Of a DNA stretch of 64,000 nt, positions 3,268 through 60,609 are shown in pieces. Every line of letters starts with the position of its first letter. The first letter of the stretch is position 1. A program made the translations under genes and the position numbers. The stretch is from contig JANQNU010000036.1 of NCBI GenBank assembly GCA_028279405.1, forward strand, positions 372,001 through 436,000, written 5' to 3'. A model generated the notes under the pieces. That model saw only the letters and a list, made by a program, of their open reading frames with translations. It was not told where the DNA came from and searched no databases. This stretch comes from Phycisphaerae bacterium (lineage in GTDB: Bacteria > Planctomycetota > Phycisphaerae > UBA1845 > Fen-1342).

Positions 3268-6200
3268 GTGCATCAAAGCAACTCAACGCGATTGCGGCGA
3301 ACACTGCCCCTCGAGCCCGCCTGTGCCGTCCGCACGACCCTCGGGCGGCCCGTATGGTTCCTGGTGGCTGCAATTCTGATCGGGATGCCGATCGGGGTGG
3401 CGCGCGCTCAGGACATTGCGAACGCGGCCACACCACTCGTACCGGAGATGATCAGCGATAGCGACGTCGAGATCAGCGGTCGCTACGTTCGGCAATTCCG
3501 TGAGGATGACGGTACGTTCGTTCTGGTCGTGGAGGGCGCGTTTCGGCTGGACTTTGCCCGGAAGAGGCTCGCCGCGGACAACGGCGTGGTTTGGCTGACG
3601 CCGCGACATGACGAGGCATCTGATCGTCGTTACTTCGAACTGGTGGTCTATCTGACCGGGAACGCCGAGATCGTGGAGCCCGGAGGGACGACCACGGTTG
3701 ACGAGGTGTTGCTGGTCAGCCGATTGCGAAGCGCCGGGCGGGTCACGAAGTCGCACGACGCCCACGACTCGAGCCCAAAGGCCCGCAACGCGCCGCTTTA
3801 CCGGCAGGCGTGGGAGGATCGTCTGCTCATCGAGGATGGTGTTCCGCCGGATGAGCCGATCGCGGCGGTGGCTCGCCCTCGGGCGCCGCGCGTGGCGCGT
3901 CCGCCCAGCGTCGTACGCTACGAAGTCGAGCGATTCGAGCCGGCCAGCACGCCACCAACGCCGAGTGCGCCGAACGGCGAGCGGGTTTACGTTGCCACCG
4001 ACGGCGTCTATTTCTCCCAGGCCGGCGGGCCGAAACAGCCGCTCCTGGAGATTCGCGCACGATCGGCGGTGGTCTTTCCCGTCCCGAACTTCAGTCAACG
4101 CCTGCTCGACGATAGCAACGACGACGCTGGGCAGGGGGGAGAGTCGGCTGCTATTGACCAGCCATCGGCGACACCGGCTGGATCGCCGGGGAGCATGCAG
4201 CCGGTGGACGGCGCGCCGTCGTCGGCGATTGCCACGGCTGATTCCGCACCACGGCCGCCCGCGCCCGCGCCGTCGGGGCCGCTGGCGGTCGGTCCGATCC
4301 AGGGGCGGATTCGCGCGGTCTATCTCGAAGGCGACGTCCAATTGTCATTAGGGGACCGATTCATCCGCGCCAGTCGGTTGTACTACGACTTTGAGCTGCA
4401 GCGCGCGGTGATACTGGACGGTGTGTTCCGCACCGATGTCCCCGATCGTCAGGTCCCCCTGTACGTTCGCGCTGATGAGATCCGGCAGCTATCCGCGACC
4501 GAATTCTCCGCCGAGAACGCCCGGATCACGACCAGCGAATTTTTCACGCCCCATTACCACGTCGGCGTCGAGCAGCTCTATCTCCGTGACGTCACCGCCC
4601 GTGACACCGGCGGTCGAGCAATCGCGCCAGTGGCCGGCGAGTACGAGATGAAGAACGCCACACTCAACGTGGGCGGCAACCCGGTACTCTTCTGGCCCTA
4701 CGCGAAGGGGCGATTGGAGGATAGCGAGACGTTGATCAAGAGCGTCCGCGTGGGCCAGGATGGTGACTTCGGGACCATCGTCCAGACCGACTGGCACCTC
4801 TTCAACCTGCTCGGCGTCACGCCGCCGCCCGGATATGACGCCACGTTGCGACTCGATTACTTTTCCGACCGCGGGCCGGCGGTCGGAATCGATGCCGACT
4901 ACGAGACCGACGATCGATACGGGCTGTTGCGGACCTACCTCATCAGCGACCGCGGCGTCGATACCCAACTCGGCCCACTTCGGCGCCAGGCCTGGGAGCC
5001 GTCTTCCGACACCCGCGGTCGGGCCCTCTGGCGACATCGCGAATACCTGCCCGGCGATTGGCAACTGACACTCGAAGCGAGCTACATCAGTGACCCCAAT
5101 TTCCTCGAGATCTACGATCGCTCCGAGTTCAACGAGGGCAAGGAACAGGAAACGGTCTTCTTCCTGAAGCGCGCACGCGGCACGGAAGCGATCACGTTCC
5201 TAGCCAACTGGCGATTGCTCGACTTCGTCACGCAGACCGAGCACCTGCCGGACCTCGTGTACCGGCGCATCGGGGACACGCTCGACAACACGCCGCTGGT
5301 CTTCTACCACGAATCCCGCCTCGGCGTGGTGCGGTATCGGCCGGACGACCGCTTCGTCTTCGACGATCGCCCTTTCTCCAACCTCGGGCTGACTGATTCG
5401 ACGGCGCGGGTCGACGTTCGTGAAGAAGTAGAGGCGCCGATCAAGCTCGGCTGGATCAACCTCGTGCCGTTCGCCACCGGGCGCGGGACGTACTGGGACG
5501 GGATGGATCTTCACGACGGCGGACTCTGGCGCGGCTTCGGCGCCTACGGCGTGCGTGGCAGTTCCCAGTTCTGGCGGATTTACCCCGACGTGCAGTCGGA
5601 TTTGTGGGATTTGAACGGGATTCGGCACATCGTCAATCCCTACTTCGTGGCCTGGTTCGCGCACAGCAACGTCCGCAGCGACCGTATCACGCCGTTCGAC
5701 GAAGGAATCGAAACGATCGATGACTTCTACGGCGGCAAGCTCGGTGTCCGTCAGATCTGGCAGACCAAGCGCGGCGGCCTCGAGAACGCCCACACCGTTG
5801 ACTGGCTTACCGTCGATCTCGAACTCGGCGCCTTCACCGACGCGCAAGCAAACGAAATCTCAAACGGCTACGTCAACGAGTTTCGGCCTGAAGACAGCCG
5901 GTCGCGCAACTATATTGCTGGCGACGTTGCTTGGCGGGCGGGCGACACGACGACGATTCTCTACGATTTCAACTTCGACATGAGCGACCGCAGCTACGAT
6001 CGCCACAGCGTCGCGCTCGCCGTCGAACGCAACCCGCGCTTCGCGTACATCCTCGGCGCCCGTTATGCCGGCGACATCGATATGAACCTGGTCGGCGGCG
6101 GCTGGAACTATCGGCTGAACGAAAAGCACATCACCGCGTTCCGCTTGTGGCACGATATCGGGCGCGGCGACCTGGGCGAGGTGGCGTTTGCGTACATCCG

Positions 6201-6360
6201 TCGGCTGCCACGCTGGTATGCCGGCCTGTCGTTCGAGTGGGACAACGTCGACAACGACTTCAGCGTCAGCTTCAGCCTCTGGCCAGAGGGCATCCCGGAA
6301 TGGGCCCTCGGCTCCCGCCGCTTCAACGACCTCGCAAACTCGATCGGTCTGCGACCGTGA
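3268..6360 (+). CDS. LptD-like outer-membrane LPS-assembly protein (OstA family)
   Basis: A large (about 1030 aa) exported protein resembling LptD, the beta-barrel that inserts lipopolysaccharide into the outer leaflet. A signal peptide (PVWFLVAAILIGMPIGVARA) is followed by an OstA/LptA-like beta segment at about residues 45-160, a Pro/Ala-rich low-complexity linker at about 270-340, and a second OstA-like segment (GRIRAVYLEGDVQLSLGDRF). A stretch with GNPVLFWPYAKG then corresponds to the LptD signature NAT..G.PV..LPY, and the rest is an aromatic-rich C-terminal barrel. I chose the GTG at 3268 because GAGG lies 6 nt upstream; a TTG at 3241 is possible. The duplicated OstA region and linker are longer than in proteobacterial LptD. 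No lptE or surA is next to it. Confidence 0.8.
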   Translation: MHQSNSTRLRRTLPLEPACAVRTTLGRPVWFLVAAILIGMPIGVARAQDIANAATPLVPEMISDSDVEISGRYVRQFREDDGTFVLVVEGAFRLDFARKRLAADNGVVWLTPRHDEASDRRYFELVVYLTGNAEIVEPGGTTTVDEVLLVSRLRSAGRVTKSHDAHDSSPKARNAPLYRQAWEDRLLIEDGVPPDEPIAAVARPRAPRVARPPSVVRYEVERFEPASTPPTPSAPNGERVYVATDGVYFSQAGGPKQPLLEIRARSAVVFPVPNFSQRLLDDSNDDAGQGGESAAIDQPSATPAGSPGSMQPVDGAPSSAIATADSAPRPPAPAPSGPLAVGPIQGRIRAVYLEGDVQLSLGDRFIRASRLYYDFELQRAVILDGVFRTDVPDRQVPLYVRADEIRQLSATEFSAENARITTSEFFTPHYHVGVEQLYLRDVTARDTGGRAIAPVAGEYEMKNATLNVGGNPVLFWPYAKGRLEDSETLIKSVRVGQDGDFGTIVQTDWHLFNLLGVTPPPGYDATLRLDYFSDRGPAVGIDADYETDDRYGLLRTYLISDRGVDTQLGPLRRQAWEPSSDTRGRALWRHREYLPGDWQLTLEASYISDPNFLEIYDRSEFNEGKEQETVFFLKRARGTEAITFLANWRLLDFVTQTEHLPDLVYRRIGDTLDNTPLVFYHESRLGVVRYRPDDRFVFDDRPFSNLGLTDSTARVDVREEVEAPIKLGWINLVPFATGRGTYWDGMDLHDGGLWRGFGAYGVRGSSQFWRIYPDVQSDLWDLNGIRHIVNPYFVAWFAHSNVRSDRITPFDEGIETIDDFYGGKLGVRQIWQTKRGGLENAHTVDWLTVDLELGAFTDAQANEISNGYVNEFRPEDSRSRNYIAGDVAWRAGDTTTILYDFNFDMSDRSYDRHSVALAVERNPRFAYILGARYAGDIDMNLVGGGWNYRLNEKHITAFRLWHDIGRGDLGEVAFAYIRRLPRWYAGLSFEWDNVDNDFSVSFSLWPEGIPEWALGSRRFNDLANSIGLRP

Positions 6361-6535
6361 GATCGTGGATTGCGTGCGCTACAAACGCATCGCCAGCGAC
6401 AGGTCCGCCACGAATGCACCGGCGAGCCAGCTTTCATCTTCAAGCGATGCGCGCTGGCCCGCGTCGGCTGGGCGACGAACTTCGGAGAAGGTCTTTTTGT
6501 CCAATCGCCTTGTACCAGCGTGCGTGTGATCCTGG

Positions 6536-55272: not shown

Positions 55273-56358
55273 CTACGACGGTCGGGTGGTCGGCGGAGCG
55301 TCCGCGGGTCGGGCACCGGCAAGGCAACGTGTGGCGAGTCGTAGCGCGCCGGCGGGATCGTCCGCAGTGCCAACCAGCCGGCCGGCGCGGTCGATGCCGA
55401 TGACGAACGGAATCGTCCGGATGCCCCATGTGCGCAGAAAGGCGTGACCGTAGCCCAGCCCGTCGTTGTACTGTTTCCACGGGAGTTCCAGCTCGGTCGC
55501 CGCGCGCGCCGTTTGCCGGGGGTCGGCGTCAATCGCGATGCCCAACACAAGCGTATCGGGGTGCTGCTCCTGAAACGTCCTCAGCGCCGCCGCCGTATCC
55601 CGGGCCGGGCCGTGAAACGCCGCCCACACGACGACCAGTACCGGCCGACCACGCCAGCGCCACGTATCGAACGAGTCCGCTTCGTGCGTAAACGTCAGTC
55701 GAAAGGGTTCACCGACCCGCTCGACCAGCTTCCTCCGGGCAGCCAAGGCTATCGTGATTGGATGTCGACGGGCGTTTTTCTCCAGCAGGTCGGTGAGCCG
55801 GGCCAAGGCGGCGCGGTCGTCGTTTTCGATCGCATCGGTGAACAGCAGTTGGCACAGTCGCGGCGCGTATCGGCTGCGCGGAAAGCGCACGACGTACTCG
55901 TTCAGGACCGCACGCTGGTGGTCGGTGAGTGTGCTGACCGCGGTGTCGATCGGCGCCGGGCGTTCGGCGCGTACTCCCGCCAGTACCAATTGCCAGTAGG
56001 CCACGATCGCCTCGAGCCGCCGACTTGGCGGCCGTGCGCGGAGGGCATCGAGGCGGCGGGACATGGTGCTGAAGTCACCCGACCGAAGCGCGCCCAGCTC
56101 GAATCGCAACCGCAATTCGAGTTCGATGACATCATCGCGACGAGCGCCGCCGGGATAGCTGGTCAGATACTGCCCGATGGTTCGCAGCGTTGCCTCGTGG
56201 CGCGCGCTCGTGTCCTCGAACCAGCGCTCCGGGGCGGAAACGGGGCGTACTTCGGCGTCCGCGACGATCGCTTCGTACAATGCCTGCTCAGGGGTCCCGG
56301 TTTCGTCCGCGCCCGCGATCCCGGCCAGGATGATGATCAGCACGGCGTGTCTTGCCAT
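55273..56358 (-). CDS. Exported thioredoxin-fold protein lacking the CxxC motif
   Basis: A 361-residue protein: hydrophobic N-terminus (HAVLIIILAGIAGA), a helical TPR-like middle (LGALRSGDFSTMSRRLDALR, RLCQLLFTDAIENDD) and a C-terminal TlpA/thioredoxin-like domain (FRLTFTHEADSFDTWRWRGR, LVLGIAIDADPRQTARAA, WGIRTIPFVIGIDRAGRL). Where a redox enzyme has WCGPC, this has WAAFHGPARD, so both catalytic cysteines are absent. It probably binds a partner rather than reducing disulfides. The ATG overlaps the CPBP stop (TAATG), indicating translational coupling. A planctomycete exported-protein role is likely, but the substrate is unknown. Confidence 0.78.
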   Translation of the reverse strand: MARHAVLIIILAGIAGADETGTPEQALYEAIVADAEVRPVSAPERWFEDTSARHEATLRTIGQYLTSYPGGARRDDVIELELRLRFELGALRSGDFSTMSRRLDALRARPPSRRLEAIVAYWQLVLAGVRAERPAPIDTAVSTLTDHQRAVLNEYVVRFPRSRYAPRLCQLLFTDAIENDDRAALARLTDLLEKNARRHPITIALAARRKLVERVGEPFRLTFTHEADSFDTWRWRGRPVLVVVWAAFHGPARDTAAALRTFQEQHPDTLVLGIAIDADPRQTARAATELELPWKQYNDGLGYGHAFLRTWGIRTIPFVIGIDRAGRLVGTADDPAGALRLATRCLAGARPADAPPTTRPS

Positions 56359-57095
56359 TACCAGAATGACCAGTCGCCGACGCGTACGACGTAGTAGTAC
56401 AGCAGCAGGTTGGTGACGCCGTGGACGATGATCAGGCACCAGATACTACGCGTCCAGATGAAGAGCGCATTGAAGAAGAACCAGCACGGAATGCTCACCG
56501 CCCAGTTGTCCGGGTGCTGCACGGTCGAGAGCAGCGCCGTGCCGACGAACGAGAACCAGGTGAACGCGCCGAGCGGAACGCGCTCGAAGCGGTTCCAATT
56601 GATCATGGCGCGCAGCAGGAACGCGCGCCAGAACAGCTCCTCGACGACAGGCACGGCCGTGCAGGCGACGACGATCCGCAGAATGCTGGTAGTCCAGAAG
56701 AGCTTATAGGCGCCGAGGACCGCTCGTGGATCCTCAACGACCTTTTCGCCGGGGAAGCCAGGCAATCGTCCGCCGAGTCCGATCGACTCGAAGTAGTAGT
56801 CTCCTACGATCCAACCCCAGGCCGCGAAGGCCCCAGCGGGGACCGCGATCCAAATATAGGGTTTTCCCCACGACGGCATGTGCGGCAGGAAGAGCCATGC
56901 CACGAACAGCGACCCGACGCCCCGCAGAACGATTGCGACCCATTCCAACTGCGGCGGGAAGAAGCCAACCAGCGCCAAAAGCAGCAGGTAGCTCATGTAG
57001 GGCGCCATCAGCACTACATCCGGCCGCTCGCGGCCGATGTTTTCAAAGCGGGCCCGAATCCCACCTTGTGCTGCCCAATGCTGTTCGTCGGTCAT
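56358..57095 (-). CDS. CPBP-family intramembrane metalloprotease (CAAX-protease-like)
   Basis: A 245-residue membrane protein with about seven hydrophobic segments. PVVEELFWRAFLL is the EExxxR motif of CPBP (Abi) proteases; further conserved residues appear as STVQHPDNW and LIIVHGVTNLLL. Such enzymes cleave within membranes and are linked to protein maturation or bacteriocin immunity. The gene leads a coupled pair with the thioredoxin-fold gene. Confidence 0.86.
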   Translation of the reverse strand: MTDEQHWAAQGGIRARFENIGRERPDVVLMAPYMSYLLLLALVGFFPPQLEWVAIVLRGVGSLFVAWLFLPHMPSWGKPYIWIAVPAGAFAAWGWIVGDYYFESIGLGGRLPGFPGEKVVEDPRAVLGAYKLFWTTSILRIVVACTAVPVVEELFWRAFLLRAMINWNRFERVPLGAFTWFSFVGTALLSTVQHPDNWAVSIPCWFFFNALFIWTRSIWCLIIVHGVTNLLLYYYVVRVGDWSFW

Positions 57096-57189: not shown

Positions 57190-58539
57190 ATGAAACGGTC
57201 ATCTTCCAGCGCCGCCGCTAGCCGCCGATGTCAGGTCGGCTGCTTGTTTGCCGGTCTCGCTTTGATCGCGGGGGCGAGCGCCGCCGAACCCCTGCCGCCG
57301 GAGCAGCGCGCCGGCCTGGAACGCGTGGCACTGGCGCGCGCCCGGGCCGCCTTGCTCGACACGCTCAACGGTCTGCCTGCCGGCGGTCGTGAAACGGTCG
57401 GGACACTTATCGGTCGCGACGTTCGGCTCGATCGCGCCTGGCGCTTGTGGGTGCGAACGCGCCCGGTCTTCGGCGGCTATCGGCTCTTCAGCGACCAGAC
57501 CTGCGATGCCGATGTACGCGCCGCGCCAGATGAGGTGCTGACGGCGCTCCTGCAGATCGCAGACGAAGTCTCCCCAGCCATCGTCGAACCGACGGTACGG
57601 AAGCGACTCAAGGCGGCCGCGGGCGATTGGCCATTATGTTACGGTACCGGCACGGCCGAACGGAAGGACGTGGCGAACGTGCGGAAGCCGGCCGGATGGG
57701 CCGACGTTTCAATCGAAGGGATCGAGGTGACCCGTCGTGCCGCGAGCGCCGACGCGATTCGCGCCCTGCTCGGGTCCACGGCCACGATCAAGGTCACAAA
57801 CGCGCGTCAGCTGAGCGATCTCGTCGAGCACTCGGTGAGCGTGCGCGATGCGTTTCGGGTGCGGTTGGCCGAGGGGGCGAAGGTCGAGGTGCGCTTCGCA
57901 GCGGACCAGGTCGCGACCGCGACGGCGGAGATTCGGCTCGCCGACCTCATCCGCGTCACGATGGCCATCCACGAGGATCTGCTGGCCAATGAACCGGTGT
58001 TTGGCGCCCGCGATTTCTCCGAGATGGTCATGATCCATGGGAGCGCCGAACGGGTCGTGCGTGCCACCGGGATCGCAACGCCTCCGGCATCCGCGATCAC
58101 GCATCCAACGTACTCCCGGGTCGAACTCGATCGGCCGGCGTGGGCGGCGCGGAAACTGACAGCGACCGGGACGTTTACGCCGGAGGATGGCCCGTCACAG
58201 CCGTTGGAGCAGGCGCTCGCGCGCGACGTTGCGCGCCTTCATGGCATTGATTCGCTTCGCGAACAGGTGCTCGAATTGCCGCTTGGTGGTTCGGCGACAG
58301 TCGCCGCCCTGATCGATCTGCGTCCAGAGCTGAAGGACGATATCGTCACCGGCTTGCATGCGGCGCGTCCCGTGCGGACGACGGTCGGGCCTCGGGACGG
58401 GGCGGTCACGGTCACGCTCGAACTGCCGCTGGAACGGCTATGGTGGATTGTTCGGCGCGGAATGGACCGCGTGGACGTCTTTCCGACGGATGCGCCGGCG
58501 CCTGTGATTCCGCAGCCAGCGACCGCAGAGGAAGAGTAG
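57190..58539 (+). CDS. Exported protein of unknown function, coupled to MIT-AAA ATPase
   Basis: A 449-residue protein with a signal peptide (RRCQVGCLFAGLALIAGASA) and a mature part of mixed helices and strands (RAALLDTLNGLPAGGRETVG, VFGGYRLFSDQTCDADVRAA, WADVSIEGIEVTRRAAS, PTYSRVELDRPAWAARKLTA). I do not recognise the family with confidence; the region is reminiscent of planctomycete LPP20-like repeats. It ends 10 bp before the AAA ATPase start, and the two are in one unit. The ATG at 57190 gives the signal peptide; the longer frame upstream lacks one. Confidence 0.68.
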   Translation: MKRSSSSAAASRRCQVGCLFAGLALIAGASAAEPLPPEQRAGLERVALARARAALLDTLNGLPAGGRETVGTLIGRDVRLDRAWRLWVRTRPVFGGYRLFSDQTCDADVRAAPDEVLTALLQIADEVSPAIVEPTVRKRLKAAAGDWPLCYGTGTAERKDVANVRKPAGWADVSIEGIEVTRRAASADAIRALLGSTATIKVTNARQLSDLVEHSVSVRDAFRVRLAEGAKVEVRFAADQVATATAEIRLADLIRVTMAIHEDLLANEPVFGARDFSEMVMIHGSAERVVRATGIATPPASAITHPTYSRVELDRPAWAARKLTATGTFTPEDGPSQPLEQALARDVARLHGIDSLREQVLELPLGGSATVAALIDLRPELKDDIVTGLHAARPVRTTVGPRDGAVTVTLELPLERLWWIVRRGMDRVDVFPTDAPAPVIPQPATAEEE

Positions 58540-58549
58540 AAGGGGACGG

Positions 58550-59677
58550 ATGGCAACGTTCGCGACATTCAAGCGGCTCAAGGACAAGGGCGTGGCAGCC
58601 ATGCAAGGTGGTGACTACGTCACGGCGCGACCGTATCTGATCCAGGCCGCAGAGTGCATGATCGAACTTGCGGAGGAAAACGACGACCCCAAGATGCGCG
58701 GCGAGCAGGAAGACTACGCGCGCGAGTTGATCGAGCTGGCCAAGAATTGCGAGCAACGGGCTGCTAAAGGTGGGGGGCGCGGCGGCGGTCGCGGCGATCG
58801 GGCCCGCGATGATGCGGACGAGTCCGGTACCGATCCCGACGACTGGATCGTTCGTGACAAGCCGAACATTCGATTTGACGACATCGCGGGGCTCGACGAC
58901 GTGAAACAGGAGATCATGCTGAAGATGATCTACCCGTTTCAACATCCCGAGGCGGCGCAGAAATACGGGATCGACGTCGGGGGTGGAATGTTGCTCTTCG
59001 GTCCGCCGGGTACCGGAAAGACGATGTTCGCCAAAGCGATCGCGTGTGAGTTGGATGCGACGATGTTCGTACTCTCGCCGGCGCAGGTTCTGAGCAAATG
59101 GGTCGGCGAGGCGGAAAAAAACATCCGTGCCTTGTTTGACGCGGCCAAGCAGGAAGATAAGGCCGTCATTTTCATGGATGAGGTGGAGGCGCTGGTACCG
59201 TCTCGCCGCGGTCAGTCATCGACGGTGATGCAGCGCGTCGTCCCGCAGATTCTACAGGAGCTGGAAGGCTTCGATCGCAAGTCCGGGCGTGCGCTGATGT
59301 TTCTGGGAGCGACCAACGAACCATGGGCGCTCGACGCCGCCATGATGCGCCCCGGGCGTCTCGACGTGAAGGTCTACGTGCCGTTGCCCGACCCGGAGGC
59401 GCGTTTTCGGCTGTTCGAGATCTACCTCAAGGGCCGGCCGCTCGACGATGACGTGAACTTCGCCGAGTTGGTGAGCCGGTCGGACGGGTATAGCGGGGCC
59501 GACATCAAGGCGGTTTGCGCGCGGTCGGCGAGCCTGCCGTTCCTCGAGACCGTCTCCGGCGGCGTCGCGCGCAACATCGGGATGGCCGACCTGCTCAGCA
59601 CGCTCGAATCGTTACCGCCGTCCGTCTCCAAGAAGGACTGCGACAAGTACGACCGTTGGGCCGAGCAGGTGTCCTGA
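58550..59677 (+). CDS. Vps4/katanin-type AAA ATPase with MIT-like N-terminal domain
   Basis: A 375-residue single-AAA protein. The N-terminal 70 residues (FKRLKDKGVAAMQGGDYVTA, IQAAECMIELAEENDDPKMR, DYARELIELAKNCEQ) have the three-helix pattern of a MIT domain. A Gly/Arg linker follows, then an AAA domain with Walker A GPPGTGKT (151-158), a pore loop LSKWVGEAEKN with an aromatic Trp (181-191), Walker B AVIFMDEVEAL (205-215), sensor GATNEP and arginine finger MRPGRLD. In eukaryotes this architecture remodels ESCRT-III or severs microtubules. GGGGA precedes the ATG. The partner here may be the upstream exported protein or a membrane protein elsewhere. Confidence 0.85.
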   Translation: MATFATFKRLKDKGVAAMQGGDYVTARPYLIQAAECMIELAEENDDPKMRGEQEDYARELIELAKNCEQRAAKGGGRGGGRGDRARDDADESGTDPDDWIVRDKPNIRFDDIAGLDDVKQEIMLKMIYPFQHPEAAQKYGIDVGGGMLLFGPPGTGKTMFAKAIACELDATMFVLSPAQVLSKWVGEAEKNIRALFDAAKQEDKAVIFMDEVEALVPSRRGQSSTVMQRVVPQILQELEGFDRKSGRALMFLGATNEPWALDAAMMRPGRLDVKVYVPLPDPEARFRLFEIYLKGRPLDDDVNFAELVSRSDGYSGADIKAVCARSASLPFLETVSGGVARNIGMADLLSTLESLPPSVSKKDCDKYDRWAEQVS

Positions 59678-60000: not shown

Positions 60001-60306
60001 CCAACAACCTCCTGCATCGTTCCCTGCGTAAGCTCCGCCTACACGCGGTTTCAGATCCACATCTCGTCCGTGAGATGGGGTCGCAGGATCGGTTATGCAA
60101 AGGCCGTGCCAGTTGCGCCGAAGGCGATCCACGTGCGTGCGACACCAGTATCGAAGCCGAGGATTCTGGTCATCGCGGGGTTCACGTCGGCGTGCGAAAA
60201 CAGGGAAGGGGGCGCGGGGCGCTGATTTGGCCGCGCAGGTGTTGCGCTCGCAAACGTGCCGCTGCGCGATATGATAGAGAGGACCTATCAGGGAAAGGAT
60301 GATCTC
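60001..60306. other. Intergenic region between small exported gene and amphi-Trp gene
   Basis: About 306 bp between divergent genes. It holds AGGAGG for the small exported gene, a + strand TATGAT at 60270-60275 that may be the amphi-Trp gene's -10, and a ribosome site AAAGGA. No additional gene is supported. Confidence 0.4.
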
Positions 60307-60609
60307 ATGCGCGCGAAAGAGCAGGAAATCCGTCTCGAGAACCAGATGGAGATCGATCAGGCAATCGGCTACCTCGAAGAGCTCGTCAAGAGCCTGCGGG
60401 CGCGGCGGATCGCAATGACGCACGGCGAAGAAAGCGTGACTCTCACGCCACCCGATGACGTCAAGTTCAAGATGAAGGCCAGCGGCAAGGGTTCGAAGGA
60501 ATCGGTGGCACTCAAAATCAGCTGGAAGATCGCAGCGCCCGCCGTCGAGCGCAACGGCGAGGCCGAAGCGCCCGATCTGACCATTACCTCCACCGCCGGT
60601 AGCGCCTAG
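60307..60609 (+). CDS. amphi-Trp domain-containing protein
   Basis: A 100-residue soluble protein. It begins with a charged helix (LENQMEIDQAIGYLEELVKS) and continues with the beta segment ESVTLTPPDDVKFKMKASG and KESVALKISWK, the amphi-Trp domain pattern with its central Trp. Members occur widely in bacteria and archaea; the function is not established. The ATG at 60307 is selected for AAAGGA 7 nt upstream; GTG at 60256 and ATG at 60271 are alternatives. Monocistronic. Confidence 0.8.
   Translation: MRAKEQEIRLENQMEIDQAIGYLEELVKSLRARRIAMTHGEESVTLTPPDDVKFKMKASGKGSKESVALKISWKIAAPAVERNGEAEAPDLTITSTAGSA

Follow-up and report, generated by a model that had tools for sequence, protein, structure and literature searches.

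We describe here an AAA ATPase gene that is very likely the ATPase component of a bacterial system related to ESCRT-III (endosomal sorting complex required for transport) and Vps4. It lies at positions 58550-59677 on the plus strand of a 64,000-nucleotide stretch (the window) of contig JANQNU010000036.1, positions 372,001 to 436,000, from a Phycisphaerae bacterium (assembly GCA_028279405.1), and encodes a 375-residue protein with Pfam AAA, AAA_lid_3, and Vps4_C matches. We favor the ESCRT reading because C6, a small protein of the operon that surrounds the ATPase gene in related genomes, is related to ESCRT-III, because the ATPase N-domain can be connected in two steps to MIT domains, because the Vps4_C segment is present, and because the operon is conserved and C6 and the ATPase co-occur even where they are unlinked. 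An earlier note on this DNA had proposed a bacterial remodelling module formed by the ATPase and a secreted protein; the idea of such a module is upheld, as an inferred role, with the ESCRT-III-like operon rather than the secreted protein as its conserved partners.

The operon emerged when the open reading frames (ORFs) in the loci retrieved from 40 relatives were clustered. The conserved order is C7-C4-C3-C5-C6-AAA-C0, with C4, C3, C5, C6, the ATPase, and C0 co-oriented in 30 of the 40 loci; 39 of these 40 have C0 behind the ATPase gene, at a median gap of 117 bp. C7 is a membrane protein of ~135 residues with a transmembrane segment, C4 is a Ser/Thr kinase with a double zinc ribbon (Pkinase E 1e-38), C3 (~480 residues) combines a winged-helix-like region with a coiled-coil half, C5 and C6 are small helical proteins of ~202 residues each, and C0 (~590 residues) is propeller-like at best. 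The winged-helix assignment of C3 is suggestive, the weak PDB matches including many winged-helix proteins (best E 0.06). In the window genome contig C39 carries C7, C4, C3, C5, and C6 together but no ATPase gene, and C0 is represented by weak halves at the end of contig C57, ~43 kb past the ATPase, and at the start of contig C44; the ATPase gene is separated from its operon in this genome, and the operon escaped the first reading because it is on another contig. Full or near-full length ATPase orthologues (59-77% identity) are present in 50 of 61 relatives, and among these 61 genomes 48 have both C6 and the ATPase, 10 have neither, and the three discordant ones are fragmented metagenome-assembled genomes (MAGs). 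C6 and the ATPase thus tend to be retained together, even where unlinked.

From its sequence profiles and predicted fold, C6 is an ESCRT-III protein. At an E of up to 1, 18 of the 20 distant members of the C6 family match Pfam Snf7 (PF03357), the best at 2.7e-6 and the first at 24.1 bits against a cut-off of 27.3. The family with its distant members included aligns by HHalign with human CHMP2A, CHMP1B, and CHMP3 over 160 columns (prob 92, E 6.5e-7), as compared with 0.14 for the reversed control, 0.014 for the best of 100 column shuffles, and at least 0.02 for the other operon families; the CHMP1B and CHMP3 references, and CHMP2A for the most part, come from the PDB. Searches with the alignment from the window's own order alone are weak (HHalign E 0.003) because the family is very uniform within that order, and direct PDB profile searches with C6 and C5 gave nothing significant. 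The structure model of C6 has helices at residues 7-49, 52-110, 115-156, and 160-199, with ESCRT-III-like lengths, so that the ESCRT-III hairpin alpha1-alpha2/3 and further helices are predicted, if at middling confidence. CdvB, CHMP2A (prob 1.00), CHMP3 (0.98), and CdvB2 occupy ranks 1, 2, 3, 5, 6, and 8 of a Foldseek search with this model. In VIA comparisons, whose scores alone do not discriminate among helical proteins, the model lies in collinear register on CHMP1B at 1.7 Å over 103 residues and on CHMP2A at 1.3 Å over 84 residues; the ESCRT-III entries listed are collinear over 84-110 residues at 1.3-3.0 Å, and most other rows are at 4 Å or more. The tail of C6 is variable save for L185, R186, E188, and K193 of an LRxELxxLK-type motif, which are invariant in alignment A1. 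We take this tail to resemble the MIT-interacting motif MIM1, with an E where the consensus has R (LxxELxxLK), and distant members differ. C5 and C3b are related to each other (HHalign E 6e-10) and may be divergent ESCRT-III-type subunits.

The ATPase itself has the parts expected of a Vps4 motor, several of them already recognized in the earlier note. The three-helix N-terminal region (residues 1-74, 58550-58771) is predicted by AlphaFold2 as helices 4-19, 23-43, and 47-74 with confidence (pLDDT) of about 88-96, and is followed by the Gly/Arg-rich linker (residues 75-98, 58772-58843), disordered at residues 75-93 (pLDDT <50), by a complete motor, and by a C-terminal helix at 361-374. The motor (AAA PF00004, E 2.6e-38; AAA_lid_3, 2.6e-9) contains Walker A (GPPGTGKT, residues 151-158, 59000-59023), the aromatic pore loop (SKWVGEAEKN, residues 182-191, 59093-59122), and Walker B (VIFMDE, residues 206-211, 59165-59182), all on the plus strand. 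In a 37-sequence alignment (A3) all but one residue of Walker A, SKWVGEAE and N191 of the pore loop, and I207, F208, D210, and E211 of Walker B are invariant. The C-terminal segment PSVSxxD...KY (residues 341-373, 59570-59668, plus strand) matches Vps4_C (PF09336) at 21.8 bits, barely over the cut-off of 21.3, and Vps4_C is matched by 20 of 23 distant ATPase homologues (E up to 1; best 3.1e-7). The protein reaches 212 bits of the 650 required by the CdvC equivalog of NCBIfam (NF041006) and is therefore not classed as CdvC itself.

The N-domain is, by profile comparison, homologous to the MIT domain through a two-step chain. The first step connects window-type N-domains with those of AAA2, a second MIT-AAA ATPase encoded in loci of other planctomycete classes (HHalign E 4e-8; reversed control 0.004), and the second connects the AAA2 N-domain with the MIT domains of human VPS4A and VPS4B in an alignment of 69 columns (E 6e-6, against 0.12 for the reversed control and at least 0.016 for shuffles), using reference MIT sequences verified against the PDB. 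A PDB search with the N-domain gave a match to 2mpk (E 0.2), with TPR-like proteins among the weak matches; we take 2mpk, from chitin synthase 1, to be an MIT domain, and it served as a lead only. A fold search with the whole ATPase model returned a list filled by motor matches and is uninformative as to the N-domain. The MIT-like character claimed in the earlier note thus stands as to the three-helix fold and the two-step homology, and does not extend to a direct profile match to MIT families.

The relationships of the motor (AAA1 in what follows) were examined in an FtsH-rooted tree (LG+G4 model) with p97, katanin, FtsH, PAN, and VPS4A motor references and with archaeal Vps4 and spastin sequences from the PDB. 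AAA2 falls with the human Vps4, katanin, and spastin sequences at a support of 98 and with archaeal Vps4 at 74; beyond AAA1, p97 D2 comes next, and PAN and Cdc48 D1 are more distant. Among the motors of known structure listed, scores are near-tied, and archaeal Vps4 has the lowest root-mean-square deviation (1.7-1.8 Å) and the highest identity (38%). AAA1 appears to be Vps4-like, on the Vps4/katanin/spastin side of the tree, and at most a candidate orthologue of Vps4. The motor had been described as of Vps4/katanin type, which agrees with the Vps4_C segment and with a position away from FtsH, PAN, and Cdc48 D1; the tree places AAA1 beside the meiotic clade rather than within it. We also note a planctomycete AAA family of ~460 residues (L231, L232, and L234) with 37-41% identity to the window motor, the match spanning the motor only, which is its sister in the tree.

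Phylum-wide, C6 was found in 55 of 392 Planctomycetota genomes, and loci in other classes of the phylum contain two MIT-AAA ATPases together with C6, C5, C3, C0, C7, and C4. At least three versions of the system occur: AAA1 only, as in the order of the window; AAA1 with AAA2; and AAA2 without AAA1 detected nearby. Loci L222, L223, L224, and L226 contain AAA2 and C6 without detected AAA1 or C5. Scanning 84,980 species genomes with order-typical peptides, patterns that cannot reach distant phyla, gave 93 loci; the 80 listed are nearly all labelled as planctomycetes, and some are on complete chromosomes. One C6 locus (L152) is recorded as an 'Alphaproteobacteria bacterium' MAG, a label that is probably wrong. 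Locus L071 has a HEPN-domain protein (5657-6437; PF05168, E 9e-25), preceded by an ORF of ~128 residues, inserted between C6 and the ATPase, and this cluster recurs in L060, L082, and L087. Anti-phage defence was considered as a function and rejected, the PADLOC matches being to a generic AAA protein and kinase.

Several observations weigh against an ESCRT assignment. The C6 members scanned from the window's own order gave zero Pfam Snf7 matches, the C6 model has a pLDDT of 71 and its Foldseek E-values are all 0.14 or above, and C5 and C3b have no CHMP relationship detectable by HHalign. The window N-domain alone has no significant MIT-family match in Pfam and PDB profile searches, and the direct comparison of window-type N-domains with VPS4 MIT is weak (HHalign E 0.008). 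AAA1, together with the ~460-residue family, is placed by the tree as sister to the Vps4/meiotic clade rather than inside it (87), and it carries Cdc48-like RPGR arginine fingers. The Fisher test of C6/ATPase presence-absence (48/2/1/10 in the 61 genomes; p 8e-9) ignores shared ancestry, and the named genomes found are metagenome-assembled.

Some of these features could be accommodated by a generic Cdc48/FtsH-like unfoldase with a TPR-like adaptor for its helical N-domain, the helical proteins of the operon being unrelated coiled coils. The best raw sequence matches of the ATPase are indeed to Cdc48 D2, and both the arginine fingers and the TPR-like proteins among the N-domain matches point in this direction. 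We nonetheless regard it as unlikely, given a Vps4_C match over the cut-off, Snf7 matches in most of the distant C6 members, HHalign results that hold against reversed and shuffled controls, and an AAA2 in the same operons that groups firmly with Vps4, katanin, and spastin. A PspA/Vipp1-type stress system that has recruited an AAA ATPase, as opposed to one of ESCRT-III/Vps4 type, would explain the presence of Vipp1 among the weaker Foldseek matches of C6. This seems to us distinctly improbable, as distant C6 members match Snf7, with PspA_IM30 outside their 25 most-matched families; the window genome has no PspA (PF04012) match better than E 0.13, which is below match level; and MIT and Vps4_C are Vps4 features. 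That the ATPase functions with the exported protein, whose gene precedes it by 10 bp on the same strand, is highly improbable even with a homologue 6-8 kb from the ATPase on the same contig in two relatives, because the two genes adjoin in 1 of 61 genomes and are elsewhere on different contigs or megabases apart (3.51 Mb and 0.83 Mb in the single-contig genome G023), and because the compartments of the two proteins differ; on synteny we reject the exported protein as a partner.

The two ORFs are otherwise as the earlier note had described them, both on the plus strand with a 10 bp spacing. The exported-type ORF (57190-58539) encodes 449 residues with a start resembling a signal peptide, and is without a match in Pfam or NCBIfam. 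Homologues are present in 49 of the 61 relatives searched, and are adjacent to the ATPase only in the window genome, so that the proposed coupling, and with it conservation of the pair in planctomycetes, is not borne out; we judge the exported protein to be a chance, lineage-specific neighbour outside the system. It belongs to a planctomycete family with homologues in G007, G016, G026, G045, and G048, and with neighbouring paralogues in some relatives. Directly upstream of the ORF pair, at 56358-57095 on the minus strand, is a CAAX-type (Rce1-like, PF02517) membrane protease, and positions 60256-60609 encode a small Amphi-Trp-domain protein (PF20068, E 6.5e-9).

By analogy with known ESCRT-III/Vps4 systems, C6, probably with C5 and C3b, would form polymers on the side of the membrane that faces the cytoplasm, and the conserved MIM-like tail of C6 would be the binding site for the MIT-like domain of the ATPase. 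A hexameric motor could then use its aromatic pore loop to thread the subunits and dismantle the polymer, and this disassembly may drive membrane bending, scission, or repair. The winged-helix-like part of C3 may serve as an adaptor, the C4 kinase as a regulator, the C7 membrane protein as an anchor, and the propeller-like C0 as a scaffold. We infer polymerisation, MIT-MIM binding, hexamer formation, threading, disassembly, and the cellular roles from these analogies. FtsZ is absent from the order of the window and from the C6-bearing genomes tested, including all 38 of those from other classes; the one match was in a MAG that is 8% contaminated. With FtsZ missing, and PspA missing from the window genome, a role in division or repair is conceivable. 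FtsZ loss was rejected as a specific link to division: 9 of 10 genomes of the same class that have no C6 also lack FtsZ, and its loss, occurring with and without C6, therefore does not single out division.

The system shares with the archaeal Cdv/ESCRT loci (CdvB, CdvC/Vps4, and the winged-helix loci of Makarova 2024, PMC10936438) an ESCRT-III gene beside a Vps4_C-bearing MIT-AAA ATPase and a winged-helix-like protein in one operon. It differs in being bacterial, in an AAA1 motor that appears to lie outside the meiotic clade, and in its conserved kinase, transmembrane, and propeller-like genes, often with a second MIT-AAA ATPase in other classes. With eukaryotic ESCRT-III/Vps4 (CHMP2A, CHMP3, and CHMP1B; VPS4A/B) it has in common the 160-column C6 alignment, a putative MIM1-like motif in the C6 tail, and the MIT, AAA, Vps4_C order of the ATPase, whereas the E-for-R departure in the C6 motif is not shared. 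Bacterial PspA/Vipp1/IM30 proteins also belong to the ESCRT-III superfamily, although PspA is described as acting without Vps4 (PMC7615534), while distant C6 members match Snf7 and the window genome lacks PspA. The Vps4-like AAA+ ATPases transferred to bacteria (e.g. ACB74714.1; Ravi 2024, PMC11237479) are isolated cases of such a motor in a bacterium, in which snf7 is reportedly displaced by an unrelated TPR/6TM gene, whereas the planctomycete system retains its ESCRT-III gene.

Systems with both Vps4 and ESCRT-III are described as confined to archaea and eukaryotes (Makarova 2024, PMC10936438), and a review regards bacteria as lacking a clear Vps4 (PMC7615534). Ravi 2024 (PMC11237479) reports the transferred Vps4-like ATPases with displaced snf7, as well as occasional bacterial PspA/Snf7 with AAA+ genes; planctomycetes do not figure in its main text. 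Among open papers we found no account of a planctomycete ESCRT-III/MIT-AAA system. We suggest, tentatively and with some doubt, that many Planctomycetota have a complete ESCRT machine, with several ESCRT-III subunits, a winged-helix adaptor, and one or two MIT-AAA ATPases under the control of a Ser/Thr kinase, which may carry out scission in cells without FtsZ and may bear on an ESCRT origin before or outside the archaea. If true, the presence of a conserved ESCRT-III and MIT-AAA operon in bacteria of a phylum whose membranes are unusual and which lacks FtsZ would revise the published statements that such systems are absent from bacteria and add a bacterial branch to the debate on ESCRT origins, and planctomycete division and membrane remodelling would become a testable question.
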